A DNA stretch of 64,000 nucleotides from Streptomyces sp. NBC_01707. Its GTDB lineage: Bacteria; Actinomycetota; Actinomycetes; Streptomycetales; Streptomycetaceae. Location of the stretch: contig NZ_CP109190.1 of assembly GCF_041438805.1 (NCBI RefSeq), forward strand, positions 5,022,001 to 5,086,000, written 5' to 3'. The notes under the pieces were generated by a model. The model did no database searches and was not told the DNA's origin. It worked only from the letters and a program-made list of their open reading frames with translations. Shown here piece after piece: positions 29,450-62,336 of the stretch (position 1 is the first letter of the stretch; every line of letters starts with the position of its first letter). Position numbers and translations under genes: made by a program.

Positions 29450-31000
29450 TCAGGCGCGGACCGGTGACGCGTCCTCGACCAACTGCGGCCGGGGCGCGCC
29501 CCTGCGGTACAGGACCAGGGTGATCAGCAGCCCGAGGGCGAAGTAGCCCGCCGACCACCAGTACGCGGTGGCGTAGCTGTGCAGCTGGGCCTGGGCCATG
29601 TTGGCGGGGGTCGGTGGGCGTCCGACCAGGTAGCTCGTGGCGGCGCCGGTGGCGAGCGTGTTCAGCAGCGCCGTACCGATGGAACCGCCCACCTGCTGGC
29701 TGGTGCTGACCATCGCCGAGGCCACACCCGCGTCGCGGACCGCCACCCCGTACGTGGCCAGGTTCATCACGGTCGCGAAGACCATGCCGAGGCCCAGACC
29801 GAGGAAGAGCAGGTTGGGCAGCACATGGGTGACGTATCCGCTGGTCAGGTCCAGGCCCGTCATCCACACCATGGCGGCCGCGGCGATGCCCATGCCGAGC
29901 GGCACGATCGGTTTCGCGCCGAACCGGGGCACCAGCACATTGGTCGTCGTCATCGACGTCGCGATCATCAGGGCGACCATCGGGATGAACGCGAGACCGG
30001 TGGCGACCGGCGAGTAGAGCAGAGTCCTCTGCAGGTAGTAGGTGAGGAACAGGAACACGCCGAACATGCCGCCACCGGCGATGAACATCGCCAGATAGGA
30101 CGCCCCTCGGTTCCGGTTCAGCACCACCCGCAACGGCAGCAACGGATGCGCGGCCCGCGTCTGCCACCAGGCGAACGCCGCCACGAGCACACCGCCCGCC
30201 ACGAGGAAGCCCCAGGTGTCCGGTGAACTCCACCGGTGGGACTCCGCGTTCGAGAAGCCGAACACGATGCAGAAGAGACCCGACGAGACCAGGACCGTGC
30301 CCGGGACATCGAGCTTCGGACGGTGGGCGGGGGCGCCGGCGCTCAGCAGCCGGGCACCGCCGACGAAGGCGATCAGGGCGAACAGCAGGTTGACGTACAG
30401 GCACCAGCGCCAGTTCAGGTACTCGGTGAGCACCCCGCCGAGCAGCAGTCCCACCGCGCCGCCCGTCCCCGCGATGGCGCCGTAGATCCCGAAGGCCTTA
30501 GCCCGCTCGTTCGGGACGTTGAACGTCGTGGTGAGGAGCGAGAGCGCGGCCGGCGCCAGCAGCGCGGCGAACAGGCCCTGGAGGGCTCGGGCGACGACGA
30601 GGACCTCGAAGCCCGGGGCGGCGCCGCCGATCGCCGACACCACCGCGAAGCCGACCAGGCCGGTCAGGAACACGATCTTCCGGCCCACCAGGTCGGCAAT
30701 CCGGCCGCCGAGCAGCAGCAACGAGCCGAAGGCCAGGGCGTACGCCGTCACGATCCACTGGCGGTTGCCGTCGGAGAAACCGAGGTCCTGCTGGGCGGAG
30801 GGCAGGGCGATGTTCACGATGGTGGCGTCCAGGACCACCATCAGCTGCGCCAGACCGATCACCCCGAGCACCCACCACCGATGCGCCGGCCCACGCTCAC
30901 GCCGGGGCGCGGGGCGAGCCGGCGAGGGGGTCCCGCTCACGCCACCCACGGAGCGTTCCTCCTCGAACGGCTCTCGTGCATGACGTGCATGACGGGCCAT
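29450..31000 (-). CDS. DHA2-family MFS drug efflux transporter
   Basis: A 516-residue proton-driven exporter with fourteen predicted helices. Motif D1 reads VVLDATIVNIALP after helix 1; motif A is LLGGRIADLVGRK between helices 2 and 3; motif C lies in GAIAGTGGAVGLLLGG. These mark the EmrB/QacA family. The N-terminal 40 residues are charged and cytoplasmic. A palindrome TGCCGG-gat-CCGGCA lies 104 nt upstream of the start and recurs in front of the adjacent PucR-type regulator, so that protein is the likely controller. Substrates are probably lipophilic toxins or an antibiotic. Confidence 0.93.
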   Translation of the reverse strand: MARHARHAREPFEEERSVGGVSGTPSPARPAPRRERGPAHRWWVLGVIGLAQLMVVLDATIVNIALPSAQQDLGFSDGNRQWIVTAYALAFGSLLLLGGRIADLVGRKIVFLTGLVGFAVVSAIGGAAPGFEVLVVARALQGLFAALLAPAALSLLTTTFNVPNERAKAFGIYGAIAGTGGAVGLLLGGVLTEYLNWRWCLYVNLLFALIAFVGGARLLSAGAPAHRPKLDVPGTVLVSSGLFCIVFGFSNAESHRWSSPDTWGFLVAGGVLVAAFAWWQTRAAHPLLPLRVVLNRNRGASYLAMFIAGGGMFGVFLFLTYYLQRTLLYSPVATGLAFIPMVALMIATSMTTTNVLVPRFGAKPIVPLGMGIAAAAMVWMTGLDLTSGYVTHVLPNLLFLGLGLGMVFATVMNLATYGVAVRDAGVASAMVSTSQQVGGSIGTALLNTLATGAATSYLVGRPPTPANMAQAQLHSYATAYWWSAGYFALGLLITLVLYRRGAPRPQLVEDASPVRA

Positions 31001-32533: not shown

Positions 32534-33196
32534 ATGCAGGAGTTCCTGGACGCGGCGCTCTCCTTTCCGACCGCCCTCTTCGGCGCGGCCCTGGTCGTCG
32601 TCATCTGTTTCTGGCTGCTGGTCCTGGCCGGTGCGGCCGACCACCACTCCTTCGACGCCGACCTCGACACCGACCTGGCCGGGATCGGCGGTGTGCCGGT
32701 CGCCGTCTCGGTGTCCGTGATGATCGTCGTCGCCTGGTTCGCCGGCCTGACCGGCACCGTCCTGCTGCACCGCAGCTCGGTCACCGGCACTCCGCGCGCC
32801 GCGCTCGCCTGTGCCGTGCTCGCCGGGGCGCTGCTGATCTCCTGGGCCGTGGTCCGGCTGCTCGTCACCCGCTACCGCCGCCTCTTCCCGCCCGAACCCC
32901 CGCCGTCCCGCCAGGACTTCCTCGGCCGGGTCTGCACCATCCGTACCGGCTCCGTCAGCTCCGACTTCGGCCAGGCCGAGGTCGCGGCGGCCGACGGGTC
33001 CACCGCGATCGTGCAGGTCAGGCAGTTGCGGCAGACGGACGAAGCGGTCTTCACGGCGGGCAGTGCGGGGCTTCTCTACGCGTACGACGACGAGGGCGAG
33101 TTCTTCTGGGTCTCGCCCTACGACGTGACGCTCGACCCGGGACCACCGACGCCACCGCGGCAGTTGCCGCGTACCCGCCCCCGCCGCACCGGCTGA
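32534..33196 (+). CDS. YqiJ-like OB-fold membrane protein
   Basis: A 220-residue protein. Three hydrophobic segments lie near residues 10-32, 54-78 and 92-115. The C-terminal domain (about 125-205) reads as an OB-fold: DFLGRVCTIRTGSVSSDFGQAEV, then ADGSTAIVQVRQ and FFWVSPYDV. This is the arrangement of YqiJ and NfeD-like proteins, which are routinely encoded beside flotillins and are thought to chaperone or anchor them. GGGGAG lies 7 nt before the ATG. The flotillin gene starts 116 nt downstream. Confidence 0.85.
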   Translation: MQEFLDAALSFPTALFGAALVVVICFWLLVLAGAADHHSFDADLDTDLAGIGGVPVAVSVSVMIVVAWFAGLTGTVLLHRSSVTGTPRAALACAVLAGALLISWAVVRLLVTRYRRLFPPEPPPSRQDFLGRVCTIRTGSVSSDFGQAEVAAADGSTAIVQVRQLRQTDEAVFTAGSAGLLYAYDDEGEFFWVSPYDVTLDPGPPTPPRQLPRTRPRRTG

Positions 33197-33312
33197 GCCG
33201 CCGGCCGCCGCCGGACGCCGTGATCCGGCGCGCACACGGCTGCCCGCCGCCGCCCCGGCGCTCCGTCTCCTCTCACCCACCTCGCCTTCCTCACCAGCCG
33301 CCAAGGACTGTC

Positions 33313-35427
33313 ATGGATGCCATCTCCCTGGGCTTCGGTGTGCTCATCGCCGTGGTCCTGCTCATCACGATCGCTCTGCTCCTCGTCGTCAGCCGGCTCT
33401 TCCGCAAGGTCGAACAGGGCAAGGCCCTGATCATCTCCAAGACCAAGAAGGTCGACGTGACCTTCACCGGCGCCGTCGTCCTGCCGGTGCTGCACAAGGC
33501 CGAGTACATGGACATCTCGGTGAAGACGATCGAGATCCGGCGCACCGGCCGCGAGGGCCTGATCTGCCAGGACAACATCCGCGCCGACATCCACATCAAC
33601 TTCTTCGTACGGGTCAACAAGACCGTCGAGGACGTCATCAAGGTGGCCCAGGCCATCGGTACCGAGCGGGCCAGCGACAAGATCGCCATCCAGGACTTCT
33701 TCGCCGCGAAGTTCGCCGAGGCCCTCAAGACAGTCGGCAAGCAGCTGGACTTCGTCGATCTCTACACCAAGCGCGAAGAGTTCCGGGACCGCATCATCCG
33801 GGTCATCGGGACCGACCTGAACGGTTACCACCTCGACGACGCGGCGATCGACCACCTGGAACAGACGCCGATGGCGCAGCTCGACAGCGCCAACATCCTC
33901 GACGCACAGGGCATCCGCAAGATCACCGAACTGACGACGATCGAGCACGTACGCACCAACGAGTTCCAGCGCACCGAGCAGAAGGAGATCACCCGGCAGA
34001 ACGTCGACGCCCGCGAGACCATTCTGGAGCTGGAGCGCCGACAGGCCGAGGCCGAGATCAAGCAGCGGCGCGAGGTCGAGACCCTGCGGGCCCGCGAGGA
34101 GTCGGCCACCGCCCGGGTCCAGGAGGAGGAACGGCTGGGCGCGCAGACGGCGTTCATCCGTACCGAGGAACAGCTCGGCATCCAGCGCGAGAACCAGGCG
34201 CGGGAGATCGCCGTCGCACAGAAGAACCGTGAACGGGTCATCGCGGTCGAGAACGAGCGCATCGAGAAGGACCGGCTGATCGAGGTCATCGGGCGCGAAC
34301 GGCAGACCGAGCTGAATCGAATCGCCGCGACGAAGGAGGTCGAGGCGGAGCGCCGCGAGGTCGCCGATGTGATCCGGGAGCGGATCGCCGTGGACCGTAC
34401 GGTCGCCGAGCAGGAAGAGTCGATCAAGACCCTGCGGGCCGTCGAGGAGTCGGAGCGTACCCGCAAATCGGTGATCATCGCCGCCGAGGCCGAGGCCCAG
34501 GAGAAGCTGGTCAAGGACATCAAGGCGGCGGAGGCGGCCGAGGTGGCGGCCACCCACCGGGCGGCGGAGCAGCTGACGCTCGCCGAGGCCCGGCTCAAGG
34601 GCGCGGATCTCGACGCCCGGGCCAAGCTGCGACTCGCCGAAGGCGTCCAGGCGGAGTCCGCGGCGCCCGGTCTGGCCGAGGTGCAGGTGCGGGAGGCTGC
34701 GGCCGACGTCATCGAGAAGACCGGTCTCGCCGAGGCGGAGGCCACGTCCGCCCGGCTCAGGGCCGAGGCGGAGGGCGCACGGCTGAAGGCCCTGGCGACC
34801 GCCGAGGGCACCCAGGCGCAGGCGACCGCGGACGCGGCGATGATCGGCGAGAAGTTGAAGGCCGAAGCGGCCGGGCTCACGGAGAAGGCTGCGGCCATGG
34901 CCGCGCTGGACGACGCGTCGCGCGGACACGAGGAGTACCGGCTGCGGCTCGCCGCCGAGAAGGAGATCCGGCTGGCCGGCCTCGATGTGCAGCGGCAGGT
35001 CGCGGAGGCGCAGGCGACGATCGTGGCCGCCGGTCTGGAGAACGCGGACATCGACATCGTCGGCGGGGAGTCGGTCTTCTTCGACCGGCTGGTCTCGTCG
35101 ATCTCGCTCGGCAGGAGCGTGGACGGGTTCATGGAGAACTCGGACACGGCGAAGGCCCTCGCCGGGCCGTGGCTGAACGGGTCGTCGTCGTTCACGGAAG
35201 ACCTGACCCGGGTGCTCGGGTCGGTGTCCACGGGCGATGTGCAGAACCTCACGGTGTCGGCGCTGCTGACGCGGATGATGGCCGCGCCGGGAGTGGGAGC
35301 GGATGCCGGACAGGTCCGGCAGCTGCTGGAGTCGGCACGCAGGCTCGGGCTGGCGGATGTGCGGGTCGGGGTGCCGGCGGAGGCACATGACGGGGTGGCG
35401 GCGCGCAACGGGGCGCCGGTGGCGTAG
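33313..35427 (+). CDS. Flotillin (SPFH domain, YqiK-like)
   Basis: A 704-residue flotillin. One N-terminal membrane helix (about residues 5-27) is followed by an SPFH/band-7 domain (about 35-190: RKVEQGKALIISKTKKVDVTF, LPVLHKAEYMDISVKTIEI). A very long Glu/Ala-rich coiled coil follows (about 215-560, with EAEA-type repeats), then a C-terminal helical region. It is longer than Bacillus FloT (about 500 residues) and resembles YqiK. Flotillins form large membrane cages that organise microdomains. It is preceded by an OB-fold partner and followed, past a repeat-rich 248-nt gap, by a giant AAA+ ATPase. All the partners in this block are on one strand. Confidence 0.93.
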   Translation: MDAISLGFGVLIAVVLLITIALLLVVSRLFRKVEQGKALIISKTKKVDVTFTGAVVLPVLHKAEYMDISVKTIEIRRTGREGLICQDNIRADIHINFFVRVNKTVEDVIKVAQAIGTERASDKIAIQDFFAAKFAEALKTVGKQLDFVDLYTKREEFRDRIIRVIGTDLNGYHLDDAAIDHLEQTPMAQLDSANILDAQGIRKITELTTIEHVRTNEFQRTEQKEITRQNVDARETILELERRQAEAEIKQRREVETLRAREESATARVQEEERLGAQTAFIRTEEQLGIQRENQAREIAVAQKNRERVIAVENERIEKDRLIEVIGRERQTELNRIAATKEVEAERREVADVIRERIAVDRTVAEQEESIKTLRAVEESERTRKSVIIAAEAEAQEKLVKDIKAAEAAEVAATHRAAEQLTLAEARLKGADLDARAKLRLAEGVQAESAAPGLAEVQVREAAADVIEKTGLAEAEATSARLRAEAEGARLKALATAEGTQAQATADAAMIGEKLKAEAAGLTEKAAAMAALDDASRGHEEYRLRLAAEKEIRLAGLDVQRQVAEAQATIVAAGLENADIDIVGGESVFFDRLVSSISLGRSVDGFMENSDTAKALAGPWLNGSSSFTEDLTRVLGSVSTGDVQNLTVSALLTRMMAAPGVGADAGQVRQLLESARRLGLADVRVGVPAEAHDGVAARNGAPVA

Positions 35428-35430
35428 CGG

Positions 35431-35520
35431 GGCGGGCCCGTCCGGCGGCCGGTCCGTCCCAGAACGCCGGGCGGGCCCGTCCCGTCGCCGGTCCGTCCCA
35501 GAACGCCGGACGGGCCCGGG
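35431..35520. repeat. Two-copy 39-nt tandem repeat
   Basis: GGCGGGCCCGT starts at 35431 and again at 35470; both units continue through GCCGGTCCGTCCCAGAACGCC with few differences. A partial third unit begins near 35508. Related GC-rich intergenic repeats are common in Streptomyces. Confidence 0.6.
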
Positions 35521-35574
35521 TCGACCGCCCCGTGCCCGCCCACCACGCACTTCAGGCCCGACCGGGCCGCGGTT

Positions 35575-35621
35575 CCGTCCTCGATCGCCGGACAGGCTCG
35601 GCCTGCGGCGATCGAGGACGG
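35575..35621 (+). terminator. Long perfect hairpin between flotillin and the AAA+ gene
   Basis: CCGTCCTCGATCGCCG (35575-35590) pairs perfectly with CGGCGATCGAGGACGG (35606-35621), 15-nt loop, 54 nt before the next start codon. It may attenuate transcription into the ATPase gene or be a mobile palindromic repeat; either would lower coupling of the two genes. Confidence 0.55.
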
Positions 35622-35675
35622 CGTGCGGCCGGAGGCCGCGCAATCCGCAACCCACACCCGCAGGGAGCCGTACGC

Positions 35676-38600
35676 ATGGACACCGACCCCGCTCTCACCG
35701 TGGACGCGGGCACCTACGACGTGCTGCGGCGTCGCCTCGCCGCGCACGCCGCCGAACTCGCCCGCCGAGCCGAAGCCCTCAACGCCCGCCGTACCGAGGC
35801 GTTCGGTTCGACAGAGCTACGGTTGCTGGCCACCGAGCAGATCCGGACGGAGCACCCGTCGCTGCCGCGCGATCTGGTCGCCGTGGGCGGACAGTTGCTG
35901 TTCGGCTTCGAGCGCGGGCCGGGCGCGCGCGGCGAGGCCACCGTCGCCGACGTACTCGCGCCGTACGGACCGGACCTGTCCGGCAGCGGCGACACGCTCC
36001 TCGTCGACGAGGCGTTCGTACGCGAATTCACCGCCCTGCACCGCTACTACCGGAACGCCCGCCTGCTCCGCCTGCGCCGTGTCGACGGCCGGCTGCTCGC
36101 CGTGTTCCGTACCGGCGACACCGCCGACGACATCCGTGTCCTGCGCTGGGCGCTCGCCCCGGACGGCTCCCCCGGACCGTTCCTCGACGCGCGCGGCGAC
36201 CGCGACCACGTCTTCCCGCCGTCGCACGACTTCACCTGGACACCGGCGGGCCGCGAGTCGCACATCCCCGGCCGTCACCCGCACATCGCGATCGGGGACA
36301 GCGGCGCCCTCTTCGTCGACACACTCGGCGGCACCCTGACCGTGAAGACGGTCGACGACACCGACACACCCGACGGCATCTACGAGGAGCCGGTCACCGA
36401 ACCGCTTCAGTCCCTCGCCGACGCCGACGTCGAGTACGCCGAGGTCGGACCGCTGATCCTGCTGCGCATCCGCCCGTACAACGAGGACGCCTGGCGCCAC
36501 CTGGTCTTCAACAGCCTGCTCTCCACCGTGCAGCGCCTCGACGCCATCGGTCCGGCCTGCCACCGGCTCCCCGAGGACCAGGGGATCATCTTCCCCGGTG
36601 GCACCTATCTCACCACCGGCACCGCGAAGACCTTCGACCTCGCCGAGCCCCTCGCCGACCCGGTCTTCGAGGGGGCCGTCCGGTCCCCCAACGGCGAGGA
36701 CGTCCTCTACCTCTTCCGTTCCCGGGACGGCGGCCGCGGCCTTCTTCTGCCCTACAACCTGATCCGCCAGGAAGTCGCCGCCCCGCTGCTCGGCCGCGGT
36801 CACGCCCTGCTCGACGACGGCACGCTCGTCCTGCTCAAGGACACGGCGTCGGCCGAGCCCGCCCGTGTGCACGCGGTGCAGCGCTGGCGGACCCCGTACG
36901 TCTCCGACACCTACGCCGCCTCCCGCCCGGCCGGGACGGGTCCGCTCGCCCGGATCGGCAACGCCGATCTGGTCCGCGGCATCTCCGACTGTCTCGCCCT
37001 CGCGCACAGTGCCGCCGAGACCTCACCGACCGCCGCCGTGTACGGACGGCTGGTCGCCGACTGCACCCGCGCCACCGACCGCTACCACTGGCTGGCCGAC
37101 CACGAACTCGATTTTCTCGCGGCCCCGTTGACCGATCTCCGGGACACCGCGCAGCAGGTCCTCACCGAGTTCGAGACGGTGCAGGAGCTGACCCGGCAGG
37201 CCGCCGACGCGCTCGCGGAGTCGGCGGACCGGATCACCGCGCTCGTCCGCCGCATCCGCGGCGAGGCCCCGCGCTCGGCCGCCGCCTGGGTCTCCCAGCT
37301 CACCGAACTGCGTCGTGCGCACGGCCGCCTGGGGACGCTCGCCGAGATGCGGTACGCGGACACCGACCGGATCGCCGCGCTCACCGCCACCACCGCCGCC
37401 GACATCGGCTCGGCCGCCCAGCGGGCGGTCGCGTTCCTGAACCGGGCCGACGCGTTCACCGGCTACCACCAGGACATCGAGCAGCTCACGGCCGATGCCG
37501 CCGCGCTCACCACCGTCGTCGACGCCGCCGCGCTCGGCGACCGGCTGACGGAGATGACGGACGGGCTGGCGACGGTCACGGATGTCGTGACCGGGCTGGA
37601 GATCGGCGACGGAGCCGTCCGTACATCGATCCTGGAGCGGATCGCCGAGGTCCTCGGCGGTGCGAACCGGGCCCGCGCCACGCTCGACGCCCGCCGCCGG
37701 GAGCTCCTCGACCACGAGGGGCGGGCGGAGTTCGCCGCCGAGTTCGCCCTGCTCGGCCAGACGGTCACCGGCGCGCTGGCCGCCGCGGACTCCCCCGACG
37801 CATGCGACGAACAACTGGCCCGACTTCTGCTCCAGTTGGAGAACCTGGAGTCCCGGTTCGCCGAGTTCGACGACTTCCTCGCCCAGCTGTCCGAGCGGCG
37901 GACAGAGGTGTACGAGGCGTTCTCGGCCCGCAAGCAGACACTGCAGGACGCCCGCGCACGTCGCGCGGAACGACTGGCCCAGTCGGCGGCCCGGGTCCTC
38001 GAGACGGTCTCCCGGCGCCTGTCCGCCCTCCCCGACCTGGACGCGGTCCACACGTACTTCGCCTCCGACCCGATGGTCGCCAAGGTCCGCCGCACGGCGG
38101 ACGAGCTGCGCGGGCTCGGCGACCCGGTGCGGGCCGAGGAACTCGACGGACGACTGAAGGCGGCCCGCCAGGAGGCGGGGCGGGCGCTGCGCGACCGCAG
38201 CGAGCTGTACGCGGACGGCGGATCGACGATCCGGCTCGGCCGGCACCGGTTCGCGGTGAACACCCAGCCGTTCGACCTGACGCTCGTGCCCTCCGGGGAC
38301 CGGCTCGCGTTCGCCGTCACCGGAACCGACTACCGGGCTCCCGTCACCGACCCGGCGTTCGACGCGGCCCGCCCGTACTGGCAGCAGCAGCTGCCGTCGG
38401 AGTCCCCGTCGGTCTACCGCGCCGAGCACCTCGCCGCCAGCCTCCTGGACGAGCACGGCGCGGAAGCGCTGGCGGCCCTCGCACCGGCCGAACTTGCCGT
38501 GCTGGTCCGGGAGTCGGCGGCCTCCGCGTACGACGAGGGATATCAGCGCGGTGTCCATGACGAGGACGCCACCGCCATCCTGGCCACCCTGCTGCGACTG

Positions 38601-40568
38601 CACGCCGGAGCAGGTCTGCTGCGTGTCCCGCCGGCGGTGCGCGCGGCGGCTCAGCTCTTCTGGACATGGGAGGCGGACGACGGCCTGCGCACCTCCTGGA
38701 CGCGCCGGGCCGTCTCCCTGGCCCGGGCCCGCGAGACGTTCGGCCCGGCGCCCGCGATCACCGCGCTCCAGGAGGAGTGGGCGGCCAGGATCGGGACGGA
38801 CGACGCGCACGCCGCCGCCGCATACCTCTTCGAGGAGCTGACTTCCGGCCCCGCCGGGTTCGTGACGAGCGCTGCCGTCCGCACCTTCCTGGACAAGTTC
38901 CGCCGCACGACCGGAACTTCGGCATACGACGAGGACCTGTCCGCCCTCCGGGACGACCTCCCCGCACGCCGCCAGCTCGTCGAGGGCTGGCTGACCTCGT
39001 ACGCCCGCGCCGGTGGCACGGACATCACGAGCAGTGACCTCGCCGAGGCGGTCGCCGTGGAGCTCTGCCCGGAGCCGGGGACCGAGCGATACGACCGCGA
39101 GGCGCCGATCGCCGCGACCGTGGACGGCCTGCTCGGCATCCACCCCCGCATCGACCGGGGCCGGCTGACCGTGCGCCTGGACGAACTCCTCGCACGCACT
39201 GCGGAGTTCCGCACGACCACCGTCCCCGGATTCCGCGCCTACCAGCGGCAGCGCACCACCCTCGTCGGCGCCGAACGGACCCGGCTGCGGCTCGACGACC
39301 ACCGGCCCCGGGTGATGTCCACATTCGTCCGCAACCAGCTCATCGACGAGGTCTACCTGCCGATGATCGGCGACAGCCTCGCCAAGCAGCTCGGCACGGC
39401 CGATGCCGACCGGCGCACCGACTCACAGGGCCTCCTGCTGCTCGTCTCGCCACCCGGCTACGGCAAGACGACCCTCATGGAATACGTGGCCGACCGGCTC
39501 GGTCTGGTTCTCGTCAAGGTCAGCGGCCCCTCGCTGGGCCGCGAAGTGACCTCGCTCGACCCGGCACAGGCACGCAGCGCGACCGCCCGGCACGAGATCG
39601 AGAAGATCAACTTTGCGCTGGAGGCGGGCAACAACACGCTCCTGCACCTCGACGACATTCAGCACACCTCGCCCGAACTGCTCCAGAAGTTCATCCCCCT
39701 CTGCGACGCCACCCGCCGCGTCGAGGGGGTACGGGACGGCGAGCCGCGCAGCTACGACCTGCGGGGCAAGCGGTTCGCGGTGTGCATGACGGGCAATCCG
39801 TACACCGAGTCCGGAGAGCGGTTCCGGATCCCGGACATGCTGGCGAACCGGGCCGACGTGTGGAATCTGGGCGAGGTACTGAGCGGCCGCGAGGACGTCT
39901 TCGCGCTCAGCTTCGTCGAGAACGCGCTGACCGCCAACCCGGTGCTTGCACCCCTCGCCGGCCGCTCCCGGGAAGATCTCGCACTGCTCGTGCGCCTGGC
40001 CTCCGTCGCGGCCCCTTCCCCGATCGCGCACACCGACCGTCTCGACCACCCGTACCCACCCGCCGAGCTGGACCGGATCGTCTCGGTCCTGCGTCACCTG
40101 CTGACCGCCCGCTCCACCGTCCTCGCGGTGAACGCCGCATACATCGCCTCGGCCGCACAGACCGACGCGACGCGCACCGAACCCCCGTTCCGGCTGCAGG
40201 GCTCGTACCGCGACATGAACAAGATCGCCGAACGGATCGTGCCCGTGATGAACGACGCGGAGCTCGCCGCGGTCATCGACGACCACTACGCGGGCGAGGC
40301 CCGGACGCTCACCACCGGGGCCGAGTCCAACCTGCTGAAACTGGCGGCCCTGCGGGGGACGCTGACCACCGAACAGACCGACCGGTGGGCGGCGATCACC
40401 GCCTCGTACGTACGCACCCAGGCACTGGGCGGCCCGGACAGCGGTCCCATGACCCGGGCGGTCGCGGCCCTCGGTCTGCTCGCGGACCGGATCGCGGCAG
40501 TCGAGTCGGCGATCCGCCGATCCGACGGGCCGCTCACCGGCGCGAAGATCACCGACCGGTCCGAATGA
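35676..40568 (+). CDS. Giant AAA+ ATPase annotated elsewhere as DNA repair ATPase
   Basis: A 1630-residue soluble protein, one of the longest in the window. The N-terminal third (about 1-430) is a mixed alpha/beta region of unknown fold with repeated beta-rich segments (YLFRSRDGGRGLLLPYNL). The middle (about 480-900) is helical, with coiled-coil stretches rich in Arg/Glu/Ala. The AAA+ module lies near the C-terminus: Walker A PPGYGKTT (Lys1264), Walker B LLHLDDI (Asp1326-Asp1327), sensor 1 CMTGNPYTES and a helical lid. AGGGAG lies 8 nt before the ATG. Databases call such proteins DNA repair ATPase without known evidence for repair. Position after flotillin suggests a membrane-associated remodelling machine (inference). 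Confidence 0.88.
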   Translation: MDTDPALTVDAGTYDVLRRRLAAHAAELARRAEALNARRTEAFGSTELRLLATEQIRTEHPSLPRDLVAVGGQLLFGFERGPGARGEATVADVLAPYGPDLSGSGDTLLVDEAFVREFTALHRYYRNARLLRLRRVDGRLLAVFRTGDTADDIRVLRWALAPDGSPGPFLDARGDRDHVFPPSHDFTWTPAGRESHIPGRHPHIAIGDSGALFVDTLGGTLTVKTVDDTDTPDGIYEEPVTEPLQSLADADVEYAEVGPLILLRIRPYNEDAWRHLVFNSLLSTVQRLDAIGPACHRLPEDQGIIFPGGTYLTTGTAKTFDLAEPLADPVFEGAVRSPNGEDVLYLFRSRDGGRGLLLPYNLIRQEVAAPLLGRGHALLDDGTLVLLKDTASAEPARVHAVQRWRTPYVSDTYAASRPAGTGPLARIGNADLVRGISDCLALAHSAAETSPTAAVYGRLVADCTRATDRYHWLADHELDFLAAPLTDLRDTAQQVLTEFETVQELTRQAADALAESADRITALVRRIRGEAPRSAAAWVSQLTELRRAHGRLGTLAEMRYADTDRIAALTATTAADIGSAAQRAVAFLNRADAFTGYHQDIEQLTADAAALTTVVDAAALGDRLTEMTDGLATVTDVVTGLEIGDGAVRTSILERIAEVLGGANRARATLDARRRELLDHEGRAEFAAEFALLGQTVTGALAAADSPDACDEQLARLLLQLENLESRFAEFDDFLAQLSERRTEVYEAFSARKQTLQDARARRAERLAQSAARVLETVSRRLSALPDLDAVHTYFASDPMVAKVRRTADELRGLGDPVRAEELDGRLKAARQEAGRALRDRSELYADGGSTIRLGRHRFAVNTQPFDLTLVPSGDRLAFAVTGTDYRAPVTDPAFDAARPYWQQQLPSESPSVYRAEHLAASLLDEHGAEALAALAPAELAVLVRESAASAYDEGYQRGVHDEDATAILATLLRLHAGAGLLRVPPAVRAAAQLFWTWEADDGLRTSWTRRAVSLARARETFGPAPAITALQEEWAARIGTDDAHAAAAYLFEELTSGPAGFVTSAAVRTFLDKFRRTTGTSAYDEDLSALRDDLPARRQLVEGWLTSYARAGGTDITSSDLAEAVAVELCPEPGTERYDREAPIAATVDGLLGIHPRIDRGRLTVRLDELLARTAEFRTTTVPGFRAYQRQRTTLVGAERTRLRLDDHRPRVMSTFVRNQLIDEVYLPMIGDSLAKQLGTADADRRTDSQGLLLLVSPPGYGKTTLMEYVADRLGLVLVKVSGPSLGREVTSLDPAQARSATARHEIEKINFALEAGNNTLLHLDDIQHTSPELLQKFIPLCDATRRVEGVRDGEPRSYDLRGKRFAVCMTGNPYTESGERFRIPDMLANRADVWNLGEVLSGREDVFALSFVENALTANPVLAPLAGRSREDLALLVRLASVAAPSPIAHTDRLDHPYPPAELDRIVSVLRHLLTARSTVLAVNAAYIASAAQTDATRTEPPFRLQGSYRDMNKIAERIVPVMNDAELAAVIDDHYAGEARTLTTGAESNLLKLAALRGTLTTEQTDRWAAITASYVRTQALGGPDSGPMTRAVAALGLLADRIAAVESAIRRSDGPLTGAKITDRSE

Positions 40569-40593
40569 GTCGAACACCGGAGGCGGGCAAGGC

Positions 40594-42591
40594 ATGCTGG
40601 GTTCCGTGTCGACACTTCCCCAACAGCCTCAACGCTCCCCGTTCAGCGGCCACATGGTCGTCTGCGGCGACGACGCACTCGCCCAGCGGCTGGCGGTGGA
40701 GCTGCGTTACGTCTACGGGGAGCGGGTGACGCTGCTGCTCCCACCGGGGCGCGACCCGCGCCGCCCGGAGCTGCCGCTGACCCAACGCGGGCGCGCGGCC
40801 ACGCTGTTCGGCCGGATGTCGGCGGCGATGAACCGCAACCTGGGCAACGGCGGCACCGGAGGAGCCGACGGCGGCTCCGGCGGCGACACCGGCGCCGGCG
40901 TGGAGGCGGTCCGCATCCTCGAGGCCTCGGAGCCGTCCGACGAGGCGTTCGAGGAGGCCGGTGTCGACACGGCCGCCGCACTGGCGCTCGTCTACGACGA
41001 CGACGAACGCAACATCCGCGCCGCACTCACCGCCCGCCGCCTCAACCCCCGCGTCCGGCTGGTCATCCGGCTCTACAACCGCAAGCTCGGCCAATATCTG
41101 GAGACCCTCCTCGACCAGGCCGCCGCCGTCGCCGTACCGGGACTCGACCCGACCGCGCTGGACACGTCGACCACCGTCCTCTCCGACGCCGACACCGCCG
41201 CGCCCGCACTCGCCGCGACGGCGCTGACCGGCTCCAGCAAGGTCGTCCAGGCGGAGGGCCTGCTCCTGCGGGCCGTCGAACGCACCCCGCCCCGGCAGGG
41301 CGAGGTTGCCGACCCCGGCCTGTGCACGCTCGCCCTGCTCTCCTCCACCACCCATGACCCTGCGGGCGCCGAGGGTTCCGACAGCAGCGGCGCCGATGGC
41401 CCCCAACTCCTGCCCGATCAGCAGTCGGTGGCCGCCGCGACCGGTCGGGGCACGGTGGTCCTGGAGGCCATCCGGGAGGCCGTACCGGACGGGCCGGCCC
41501 CACGAATGGGCGGCAGGAGCGCACCCCTGAGCCAGATCTTCTCGCGCCGGCTGCGCAGGTCCGTGCTGGGCGTCGCGGCGGCGGTGCTGGGCCTCGCCGT
41601 CGCCTCCACGCTCACGACAGGCGAACCTCCGCTGCACGCCGCGTACTTGACGCTGCTCGACCTGTTCGCGATGGGCGACCCGGCGATCGAGGACTCGGCC
41701 GCCCGGCAGGTCATCCAGCTGCTCTCCGGCGTCGCCGGGCTGATGCTGCTGCCGCTGCTGGTGGCGGGAGTCCTCGAAGCCTTCGGTTCCCTGCGTACGG
41801 CATCGGCGCTGCGCCGGCCGCCGCGCGGGCTCTCCGGCCATGTGGTGCTGCTCGGACTCGGCAAGATCGGTACCAGGGTGCTGGTCCGGCTCCGCGAGCT
41901 CAACATTCCTGTGGTGTGCGTGGAGGACGACCCGGCCGCGCGCGGCATCCCCGTCGCCCGGCGGCTGCAGGTACCGGTCGTCCTCGGGGACGTCACCCAG
42001 GAGGGCGTCCTGGAAGCGGCGAAGATCCAGCGCTCCCGCGCCCTGCTCGCGCTGACCAGCTCCGACACCACCAACCTGGAGGCCACCCTCTACGCCCGCT
42101 CGGTCAAACCGGACCTGCAGGTGGCCCTGCGCCTCTTCGACGACGAGTTCGCCACCGCCGTCTACCGCACCTTGCGCACCGCCCACCCACAGGCCCTGAC
42201 CCGCTCCCGGTCCGTCTCCCACCTGGCTGCCCCGTCCTTCGCCGTCGCGATGATGGGGCGGCAGATCCTGGGCGCGATTCCGGTCGAGCGGAAGGTGATG
42301 CTCTTCGCGGCGATCCAGGTGGCGGGCCACCCGCAGCTGGAGGGACGGACGGTCGAGCAGGCGTTCCGGGCGGGGGCCTGGCGGGTACTGGCACTGGACG
42401 CCACGCCGCCGGAGGACCGCCACCCGGACCGGACAACGGCCGGTCCCACGTCCTCGGACCGGCCGTCGGGCCTGATCTGGGATCTGCACCCCGGTTACGT
42501 ACTCCGCGCCGAGGACCGCGTGGTGATCGCCGCTACCCGCCGCGGACTTGCGGAACTGCTGCGCAGACGGCGCTCGTTGACGCACCGCTAG
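40594..42591 (+). CDS. Two-RCK membrane protein, K+-channel-like without a TVGYG filter
   Basis: A 665-residue protein. The first RCK (TrkA-N-like) domain (about 20-300) has a degenerate nucleotide loop, VVCGDDALAQ. Two hydrophobic segments (about 323-345 and 365-392) flank a pore-like loop that reads LLDLFAMGDPAIED where a K+ channel would have TVGYGD. The second RCK (about 405-545) has an intact Rossmann motif, GLGKIG, and VEDDP. It resembles channel-like proteins of the CASTOR/POLLUX type more than a classical K+ channel. Its ATG is 25 nt after the ATPase stop, so the two are probably cotranscribed. Ion specificity cannot be inferred. Confidence 0.82.
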   Translation: MLGSVSTLPQQPQRSPFSGHMVVCGDDALAQRLAVELRYVYGERVTLLLPPGRDPRRPELPLTQRGRAATLFGRMSAAMNRNLGNGGTGGADGGSGGDTGAGVEAVRILEASEPSDEAFEEAGVDTAAALALVYDDDERNIRAALTARRLNPRVRLVIRLYNRKLGQYLETLLDQAAAVAVPGLDPTALDTSTTVLSDADTAAPALAATALTGSSKVVQAEGLLLRAVERTPPRQGEVADPGLCTLALLSSTTHDPAGAEGSDSSGADGPQLLPDQQSVAAATGRGTVVLEAIREAVPDGPAPRMGGRSAPLSQIFSRRLRRSVLGVAAAVLGLAVASTLTTGEPPLHAAYLTLLDLFAMGDPAIEDSAARQVIQLLSGVAGLMLLPLLVAGVLEAFGSLRTASALRRPPRGLSGHVVLLGLGKIGTRVLVRLRELNIPVVCVEDDPAARGIPVARRLQVPVVLGDVTQEGVLEAAKIQRSRALLALTSSDTTNLEATLYARSVKPDLQVALRLFDDEFATAVYRTLRTAHPQALTRSRSVSHLAAPSFAVAMMGRQILGAIPVERKVMLFAAIQVAGHPQLEGRTVEQAFRAGAWRVLALDATPPEDRHPDRTTAGPTSSDRPSGLIWDLHPGYVLRAEDRVVIAATRRGLAELLRRRRSLTHR

Positions 42592-62297: not shown

Positions 62298-62336
62298 GGG
62301 CCCGGAACCGCGCCCTGTCGTGGCGGTTCCGGGCCC
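62298..62336 (-). terminator. Terminator of the dioxygenase gene
   Basis: A perfect 14-bp stem: GGGCCCGGAACCGC (62298-62311) pairs with GCGGTTCCGGGCCC (62323-62336), 11-nt loop, 25 nt after the stop. Confidence 0.8.

Follow-up and report, generated by a model that had tools for sequence, protein, structure and literature searches.

This locus raises the question of what four large genes, lying in one direction in a 64,000-nucleotide (nt) stretch of Streptomyces sp. NBC_01707, do together. The window, by which we mean this whole stretch, covers positions 5022001-5086000 of contig 1 (9.58 Mb) in a 9.9-Mb genome. The genes encode, in order, a small membrane protein of the NfeD/YqiJ/YuaF type, a flotillin-like SPFH protein, a very large AAA+ ATPase and a membrane protein with two RCK halves, and a PucR-type regulator is encoded divergently from them. 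An earlier note on this DNA had described the four genes as lying on one strand with gaps of 116, 248 and 25 nt, which the re-derived coordinates bear out in full, and had proposed that their products could form a membrane complex of a kind not yet characterised. Our verdict is that the first three genes (the trio) are a known conserved module, which here carries a Streptomyces-specific extension.

The conservation of the trio was examined with a profile of 15 diverse DUF3686 proteins, the family of the ATPase. The best 80 of 537 loci from named genomes were searched with the window proteins; open frames were called mechanically, and gaps can be misjudged. By their titles, these loci come from Actinomycetota, Myxococcota, several proteobacterial groups, Planctomycetota and Acidobacteriota. 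In 73 of the 80, a same-strand flotillin gene lay upstream of the ATPase at a distance of at most 6 kb; of the other seven, five begin at a contig edge, one has its flotillin slightly farther upstream, at about 6.4 kb, and L050 shows none in 10 kb. An NfeD-type protein (at least 20 bits), on the flotillin strand and upstream of or overlapping the flotillin frame, was found at 68 loci. In a plasmid collection, the flotillin lay beside the ATPase in all 12 ATPase-bearing records, six of which are smaller than 0.6 Mb (including pQBR103 and two Streptomyces plasmids), while six exceed 1.6 Mb and are perhaps chromosomes. The flotillin-ATPase neighbourhood, which the earlier note had wanted checked across actinobacteria, is thus conserved well beyond them. 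As far as gene order can tell, these counts show that an NfeD-type protein, an SPFH protein and an AAA+ ATPase with a predicted propeller are kept together across phyla, in the same order and on the same strand, and the trio as a functional unit is well supported by this neighbourhood. Two module copies were seen in each of the genomes G128 (L012/L127 and L014) and G182 (L015 and L016); the ATPase of L012 and both flotillins of G182 are each split over two frames. In G377, flotillin and ATPase matches lie in one open frame (L122, 1522-8526, minus strand), which may be a fusion or a frame error.

The trio is not new in itself. The sections of Ravi et al. 2024 (PMC11237479) considered here describe CesT/Tir-PspA operons with a band-7/flotillin protein, a YqiJ/YuaF protein and a propeller AAA+ ATPase, and present the YqiJ-flotillin-AAA+ module as a predicted membrane-complex system. 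They also describe "abbreviated" forms, in which the PspA/CesT dyad is not needed, and name a potassium channel only in another, polyamine-type group. That their ATPase is DUF3686 is an identification made in the present analysis, on the grounds of the PspA-type partners beside DUF3686 loci and of the propeller-like DUF3686 model. Two gene families lie upstream of the trio at 25 of the 80 loci, and these were DUF2170 and PspA in the one member tested. The order in Hymenobacter is Tir-PspA-DUF1449-flotillin position-'DNA repair ATPase', DUF1449 being the annotation of the gene in the NfeD position, and that on pQBR103 is YjfI-PspA-rhomboid-DUF2491-DUF350-DUF1190-glutathionylspermidine synthase-NfeD position-SPFH-ATPase. 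Hence Hymenobacter, pQBR103 and proteobacterial loci carry PspA-type partners of the kind published in those sections beside the same DUF3686 ATPase, and three of the four window genes are, in kind, those of the published system. The window form differs in having no PspA (the dyad belongs to the full form only, and CesT/DUF2170 got no search of its own) and in adding the RCK protein and the PucR regulator. Since the trio is already in print, the claim that no such complex had been characterised could hold only for these two partners, which look new and are apparently part of the module in its Streptomyces version. On pQBR103 (L161/L164), a megaplasmid typed as non-mobilizable with MPF_I, the trio stands directly behind a polyamine-type PspA operon.

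We then considered the identity of the two smaller proteins. The window SPFH protein had no Pfam match to Band_7 or to Flot at E ≤ 0.1, Flot was likewise unmatched in the L042, L021, L164 and L166 members, and searches of the PDB with the flotillin profile (E ≤ 0.01) and with the single window protein gave no match. However, the family profile aligned with a YqiK-type flotillin over 412 columns (hhalign probability 99.9), and Band_7 is matched (E 9.3e-11) by the protein that takes this position on pQBR103. We therefore place the window protein as flotillin-like, so that the identity given by the earlier note stands by profile and ortholog and not by a Pfam match of its own; the word "giant" fits the 1630-amino-acid ATPase and not this protein of 704 amino acids. 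It has an N-terminal transmembrane segment and an SPFH-type region, its repetitive region is a coiled coil by inspection, and its gene is single-copy in the genome. The 220-amino-acid first protein matched neither NfeD nor YqiJ in Pfam. It has three hydrophobic segments followed by a C-terminal part, and its family profile aligned with YqiJ from an E. coli plasmid (hhalign probability 88.8), a weaker match than that of the flotillin profile; segments and profile together agree with a three-transmembrane protein of the YqiJ/YuaF type. In the part of PMC2636767 considered, the gene for a flotillin-like protein is likewise preceded, in E. coli YqiJ-YqiK and B. subtilis YuaF-YuaG, by one for a small membrane protein of the NfeD type. 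The window differs from both in that its SPFH protein has no Pfam Flot match and is followed by an ATPase.

In Pfam, the ATPase comprises DUF3686 (PF12458, E 9e-176), DUF7902 (PF25472, E 3.4e-28) and an AAA domain (PF00004, residues 1254-1377, 26.3 bits against a cut-off of 21.2), and its AAA-core residues are unchanged in an alignment of 15 diverse DUF3686 members. Among the best 120 of 3588 matches, the nearest is from Streptomyces sp. NPDC000133 (97% identical). The structure model has a helix at residues 12-43 and then strands over 49-405, and in a comparison of the DUF3686 model with known folds propellers headed the VIA list at a moderate Z of 9.7; the N-terminal DUF3686 region is accordingly given here as a predicted beta-propeller. 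In HflKC-FtsH, an SPFH protein works with an AAA+ protein at the membrane, and the pairing in the window may be likened to it by analogy, the difference being that in the window ATPase no membrane segment was predicted and no protease domain was matched in Pfam.

Databases name this protein 'DNA repair ATPase' or 'ATPase involved in DNA repair'. Taken at their word, these names would mean that the ATPase acts on DNA and that the flotillin is its membrane tether, and a weak RuvB-like similarity of the P-loop points the same way. However, this similarity spans about 49 residues in NCBIfam, far below curated cut-offs, no DNA-acting family was matched beyond the P-loop in the family-library searches, and the identified recurrent partners of the ATPase are membrane, SPFH or PspA-type proteins. 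The generic repair label passed on by the earlier note thus found no support in these searches, and we consider an action on DNA very improbable. The literature search found no paper naming DUF3686 and none joining 'DNA repair ATPase' with flotillin.

The distribution of the ATPase is patchy, with 83 of 150 Streptomyces genomes carrying it (one by a weak 30-residue match) and 8 of 296 genomes in an even draw across the phylum. Together with the 12 plasmid-collection records, six of them below 0.6 Mb, and the two copies in G128 and in G182, this would suit a defence or stress-resistance cassette, partly spread by plasmids, that acts upon membrane attack by phage or toxic compounds. However, the PADLOC matches were all weak (best E 0.0034) and fell on P-loop or coiled-coil stretches, none of the neighbouring frames tested matched defence, and the window copy sits on a 9.58-Mb contig; we regard such a cassette as unlikely. 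Matches in PHROGs were weak or to families of unknown function only.

Table 1. Positions and assignments of the features in the window (position 1 is the first letter of the stretch).
Feature	Position	Strand	Description and basis
PucR-type regulator, GGDEF_2 + HTH_30, 356 aa	31163..32233	-	divergent from module; Pfam PF17853 E 2.3e-21, PF13556 E 1.1e-15
NfeD/YqiJ/YuaF-type protein, 220 aa	32534..33196	+	three hydrophobic segments + C-terminal part; profile vs YqiJ
Flotillin-like SPFH protein, 704 aa	33313..35427	+	N-terminal membrane segment, then long repetitive region; profile vs YqiK-type flotillin
Flotillin-ATPase gap, strong inverted repeats	35428..35675	.	folding z -4.58
Hairpin in gap, arms 35575-35589 + 35607-35621	35575..35621	.	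inverted repeat + folding
DUF3686/DUF7902 AAA+ ATPase, 1630 aa	35676..40568	+	Pfam; invariant AAA-core residues
Predicted beta-propeller inside DUF3686, residues 45-407	35808..36896	+	structure model
AAA+ core, residues 1254-1377: PPGYGKTT, DDIQH, GNPYT	39435..39806	+	Pfam AAA + AAA_5 above cut-off; invariant columns
RCK protein, 665 aa	40594..42591	+	two RCK halves, between them a two-helix pore-like domain lacking a K+ filter (model)
Pore-like domain of RCK protein	41557..41796	+	hydrophobic 322-343, short helix 346-357, hydrophobic 372-401

The relation of the RCK protein to the trio was examined in the same 150 Streptomyces genomes, with RCK proteins counted at E ≤ 1e-30 and distances taken from a nominal module span. 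At 32 of 84 loci the RCK gene lay within 15 kb of the ATPase, in several arrangements: 24 were adjacent (16 downstream on the same strand, 4 convergent, 3 divergent upstream and 1 upstream on the same strand) and 8 were not. It was 15-150 kb away at 10 loci, farther at 12, and on another contig or missing at 30, a class that includes G341, G379, G384, G401 and G422 (no RCK match) and G296 (none among the matches listed). The 84 loci do not include G393, a weak case, or the second fragment in either G193 or G432; the RCK matches in G303, G305, G365 and G407 and the second RCK matches of G339, G308, G386, G390, G000 and G376 were omitted, which does not affect the nearest-RCK classes. In these genomes, the RCK protein is near the module far more often than random placement predicts.

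The regulator carries a GGDEF_2 domain and the PucR C-terminal helix-turn-helix (HTH) in Pfam, and its gene is distinct, as the best paralog in its own genome scored 62.5 bits versus 767 for itself. Among 37 Streptomyces loci (the window, 9 earlier and 27 further ones; homologs at 300 bits or more), a PucR homolog stood upstream in divergent orientation in 23, as a rule no more than 0.6 kb away but as far as 5.5 kb, upstream on the same strand in 3 and elsewhere in 6; it was unseen in 5, some of which end near the expected place. At RCK loci away from the module, the PucR homolog was still there in 10 of 32. On a linear Streptomyces plasmid, a stretch of 11.5 kb takes in the genes for PucR, RCK, flotillin and ATPase, together with a small gene at the place of NfeD. 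In summary, gene neighbourhoods show the PucR-type regulator and the RCK protein to be recurrent neighbours of the trio in Streptomyces. The literature search found no relevant paper on TrkA with flotillin in Streptomyces, nor on the RCK-domain combination. A DHA2-family major facilitator superfamily (MFS) efflux permease at 29450-31000 (minus strand) lies upstream of the PucR gene in window coordinates.

The RCK protein has one clear TrkA_N domain in Pfam (PF02254, E 1.5e-28) and two hydrophobic segments. Its model, of moderate quality as judged by a mean predicted local distance difference test (pLDDT) score of 73.2, has an N-terminal RCK-like part (about residues 20-290), helices at 318-342, 346-357 and 369-405, arranged as helix, pore helix and helix (pLDDT 64-77 over residues 321-400), and a second RCK part at 417-656. 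Its fold matches were headed by TrkA, GsuK and CASTOR; a match to MthK extends from the pore-like domain over the C-terminal RCK, though with a root-mean-square deviation of 11.3. In a weak alignment with GsuK (17.4 bits), 'LTLLDLFAMGD' stands opposite 'ITVMTTLGFGD' of GsuK, so that no GYG or GFG filter is present, and across the family alignment (42 of the 65 RCK proteins) the same position reads TLLDLFA(M/I)xDPA, which is not a K+ selectivity filter. The C-terminal RCK keeps the GxGxxG of a dinucleotide-binding fold as G421-L-G423-K-I/V-G426, with glycines invariant in this alignment, and the N-terminal half, without this motif, reads GDDALA. The earlier description of a filterless membrane protein with two RCK halves is therefore sound. 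The model suggests a ring like that of TrkA, in which a two-helix pore-like domain separates the RCK halves, whereas in GsuK and MthK the pore domain comes first, before both halves; compared with the gating rings of TrkA, GsuK, MthK, CASTOR and DMI1, the window protein lacks the K+ filter motif.

For the earlier note, the hairpin before the ATPase gene was what spoke most strongly against one operon. None of 200 shuffles of the 248-nt gap folds as well as the gap itself, which holds two inverted copies of GGCGATCGAGGACGG, which occurs exactly 4 times in the genome; a simple scan of the gap found no terminator-like site with a T run. Junction stretches that begin 330 nt ahead of the ATPase start and end 60 nt beyond it were compared in 87 of 90 Streptomyces regions (3 were unalignable). 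The best hairpin had GGGG in its loop in 51 of the 87, compared to 9 of 300 random windows; stretches that precede the flotillin gave 0 of 36, and those that follow the ATPase gave 1 of 34. The common form has a 12-18 bp stem and a nine-base loop, such as CACAGGGGA, TACGGGGGT or CGCGGGGGG; examples, all outside the window, are L013 9111-9143, L014 9039-9071 and L068 9922-9954. Exact matches to GCCGCRCAGGGGACGGC in nine genomes lay at the flotillin-ATPase junction in eight of nine cases. Among 46 selected rows, 39 of them distinct, each of the 15 pairs varies on both sides and 95.4% of cells are paired; because pairing and loop pattern had guided the selection, these figures are inflated, and the GGGG-loop count is the unselected comparison. 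A covariance model gave 42 matches at E ≤ 0.01 in 61 Streptomyces genomes, and the junction accounted for 15 of the 18 best and 16 of all 42, in 16 of the 29 ATPase-bearing genomes of this draw; as 14 of these 16 had helped to build the model, this speaks for specificity and not for independent discovery. Rfam gave no credible match in 20 junction stretches, and a miRNA-family match far below the cut-off was taken as chance.

Stem-loops of the same loop type were also found away from the junction (L216 6245-6283, L215 2266-2298, L220 5973-6011, L217-L219 and L221-L223), those of L215 and L216 beginning just past the end of an open frame. Eight of the 26 off-junction matches were checked, and out to about 6 kb from them no relative of any of the five window proteins was found at E ≤ 1e-4; a ninth stem-loop, found by pattern, sits by unrelated frames. 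Since the same loop type occurs by unrelated genes, a strictly locus-specific riboregulator was rejected, and the G-rich-loop hairpin is probably a broader Streptomyces gene-end hairpin retained at the flotillin-ATPase junction. The window gap itself (35428-35675) has no match to the covariance model, so its repeat was not accepted as this element; L017, L111 and L112, members of the window clade, do carry the G-rich-loop hairpin. Elsewhere in the window, 62299-62335 has perfect 13-bp palindromic arms and scores 28.6 bits with the hairpin model, with a different loop. The estimated flotillin-ATPase gap is 0 in Saccharothrix (L031) and Amycolatopsis (L037). As junction hairpins recur in Streptomyces and the genes abut in some other actinobacteria, the hairpin does not prove separate transcription, and the argument drawn from it against one operon is weak. 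The junction hairpin may instead act as an attenuator or as a stabiliser of the mRNA 3′ end.

We read the window as the Streptomyces form of a conserved membrane-maintenance module, and give this reading, including the following mechanism, about an even chance. The SPFH protein and its NfeD-type partner would assemble into a membrane-bound cage, to which the ATPase would dock via its propeller and coiled-coil part; when the envelope is under stress, the ATPase would spend ATP on taking apart or rebuilding assemblies bound to the membrane. The RCK protein of Streptomyces, as a nucleotide-binding ring attached to a small membrane domain, may report the ion or nucleotide state to the module, or be handled by it, and the PucR protein may control the divergent promoter region. 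Where a stem-loop follows the flotillin gene, it would lower ATPase output relative to flotillin, which would suit a many-copy scaffold and a low-copy machine. A more specific form places a filterless RCK sensor that reads nucleotides or ions in a bacterial membrane microdomain, where it would govern, or be governed by, a flotillin cage and the AAA+ remodeller belonging to that cage, with the stem-loop setting the scaffold-to-ATPase ratio and PucR as a dedicated regulator; this we put forward tentatively, as rather doubtful.

Several observations weigh against reading the window as such a module. The cage, the docking and the stoichiometry are steps that we infer, and the propeller matches of DUF3686 have low Foldseek TM-scores (at most 0.31 among the matches listed). 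No PspA gene lies in the window, the two of this genome being outside it, and the PspA family found upstream of the trio has no Streptomyces member. The other points concern the RCK protein. Three of them, its wider spread, the lack of an RCK homolog by the trio in other genera and the persistence of PucR-RCK, also speak for a rival reading, in which the trio alone is the machine and the RCK protein, with PucR, is an older neighbour of the trio's frequent chromosomal site that has no role in it. The RCK protein occurs in 132 of the 150 genomes versus 83 for the ATPase; it does not need the ATPase, and the link is loose. At 52 of the 84 loci it is more than 15 kb away, on another contig or without an RCK row; outside Streptomyces, the search around the trio (E ≤ 1e-3, 80-locus set) gave no RCK homolog; and an S. 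globosus plasmid has flotillin and ATPase with no RCK or PucR in 7 kb on each side. All 16 same-strand adjacent cases have RCK identity of at least 79%, and the 15 present in a quick tree of 65 RCK proteins (no bootstrap, long branches) share one 20-row clade (Shimodaira-Hasegawa-like approximate likelihood ratio test, SH-aLRT, 100), whose other members are three genomes without the ATPase and two with the module about 45-48 kb off. PucR-RCK also persists without flotillin and ATPase: in L137, L138 and L139 the flotillin and ATPase, missing from between PucR and RCK, were not found in the genome (L137 and L138 keep NfeD traces), and in L140 and L141 they are now about 45-48 kb away, so that these two genes seem to have been lost or moved as a block.

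However, the RCK gene lies within 15 kb of the trio in at least four arrangements outside the window clade, and PucR, RCK and trio occur together on a plasmid. A mere neighbour without a role is a serious possibility, from which we nevertheless lean away. The tie between RCK protein and module drawn by the earlier note thus stands as a proximity beyond chance, which recurs in other forms outside one clade, whereas the same-strand operon form belongs to that clade. For the membrane-maintenance module, a part played by the RCK protein is plausible.

To our knowledge, the role of bacterial flotillins with ATP-driven partners is largely open. Under the module reading, the ATP-driven partner of the flotillin would be encoded next door in many phyla. 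A family of 1600-amino-acid ATPases with an unsupported DNA-repair label would gain a set of constant partners, and a specific membrane sensor and a regulator may be named for the Streptomyces version of the module.

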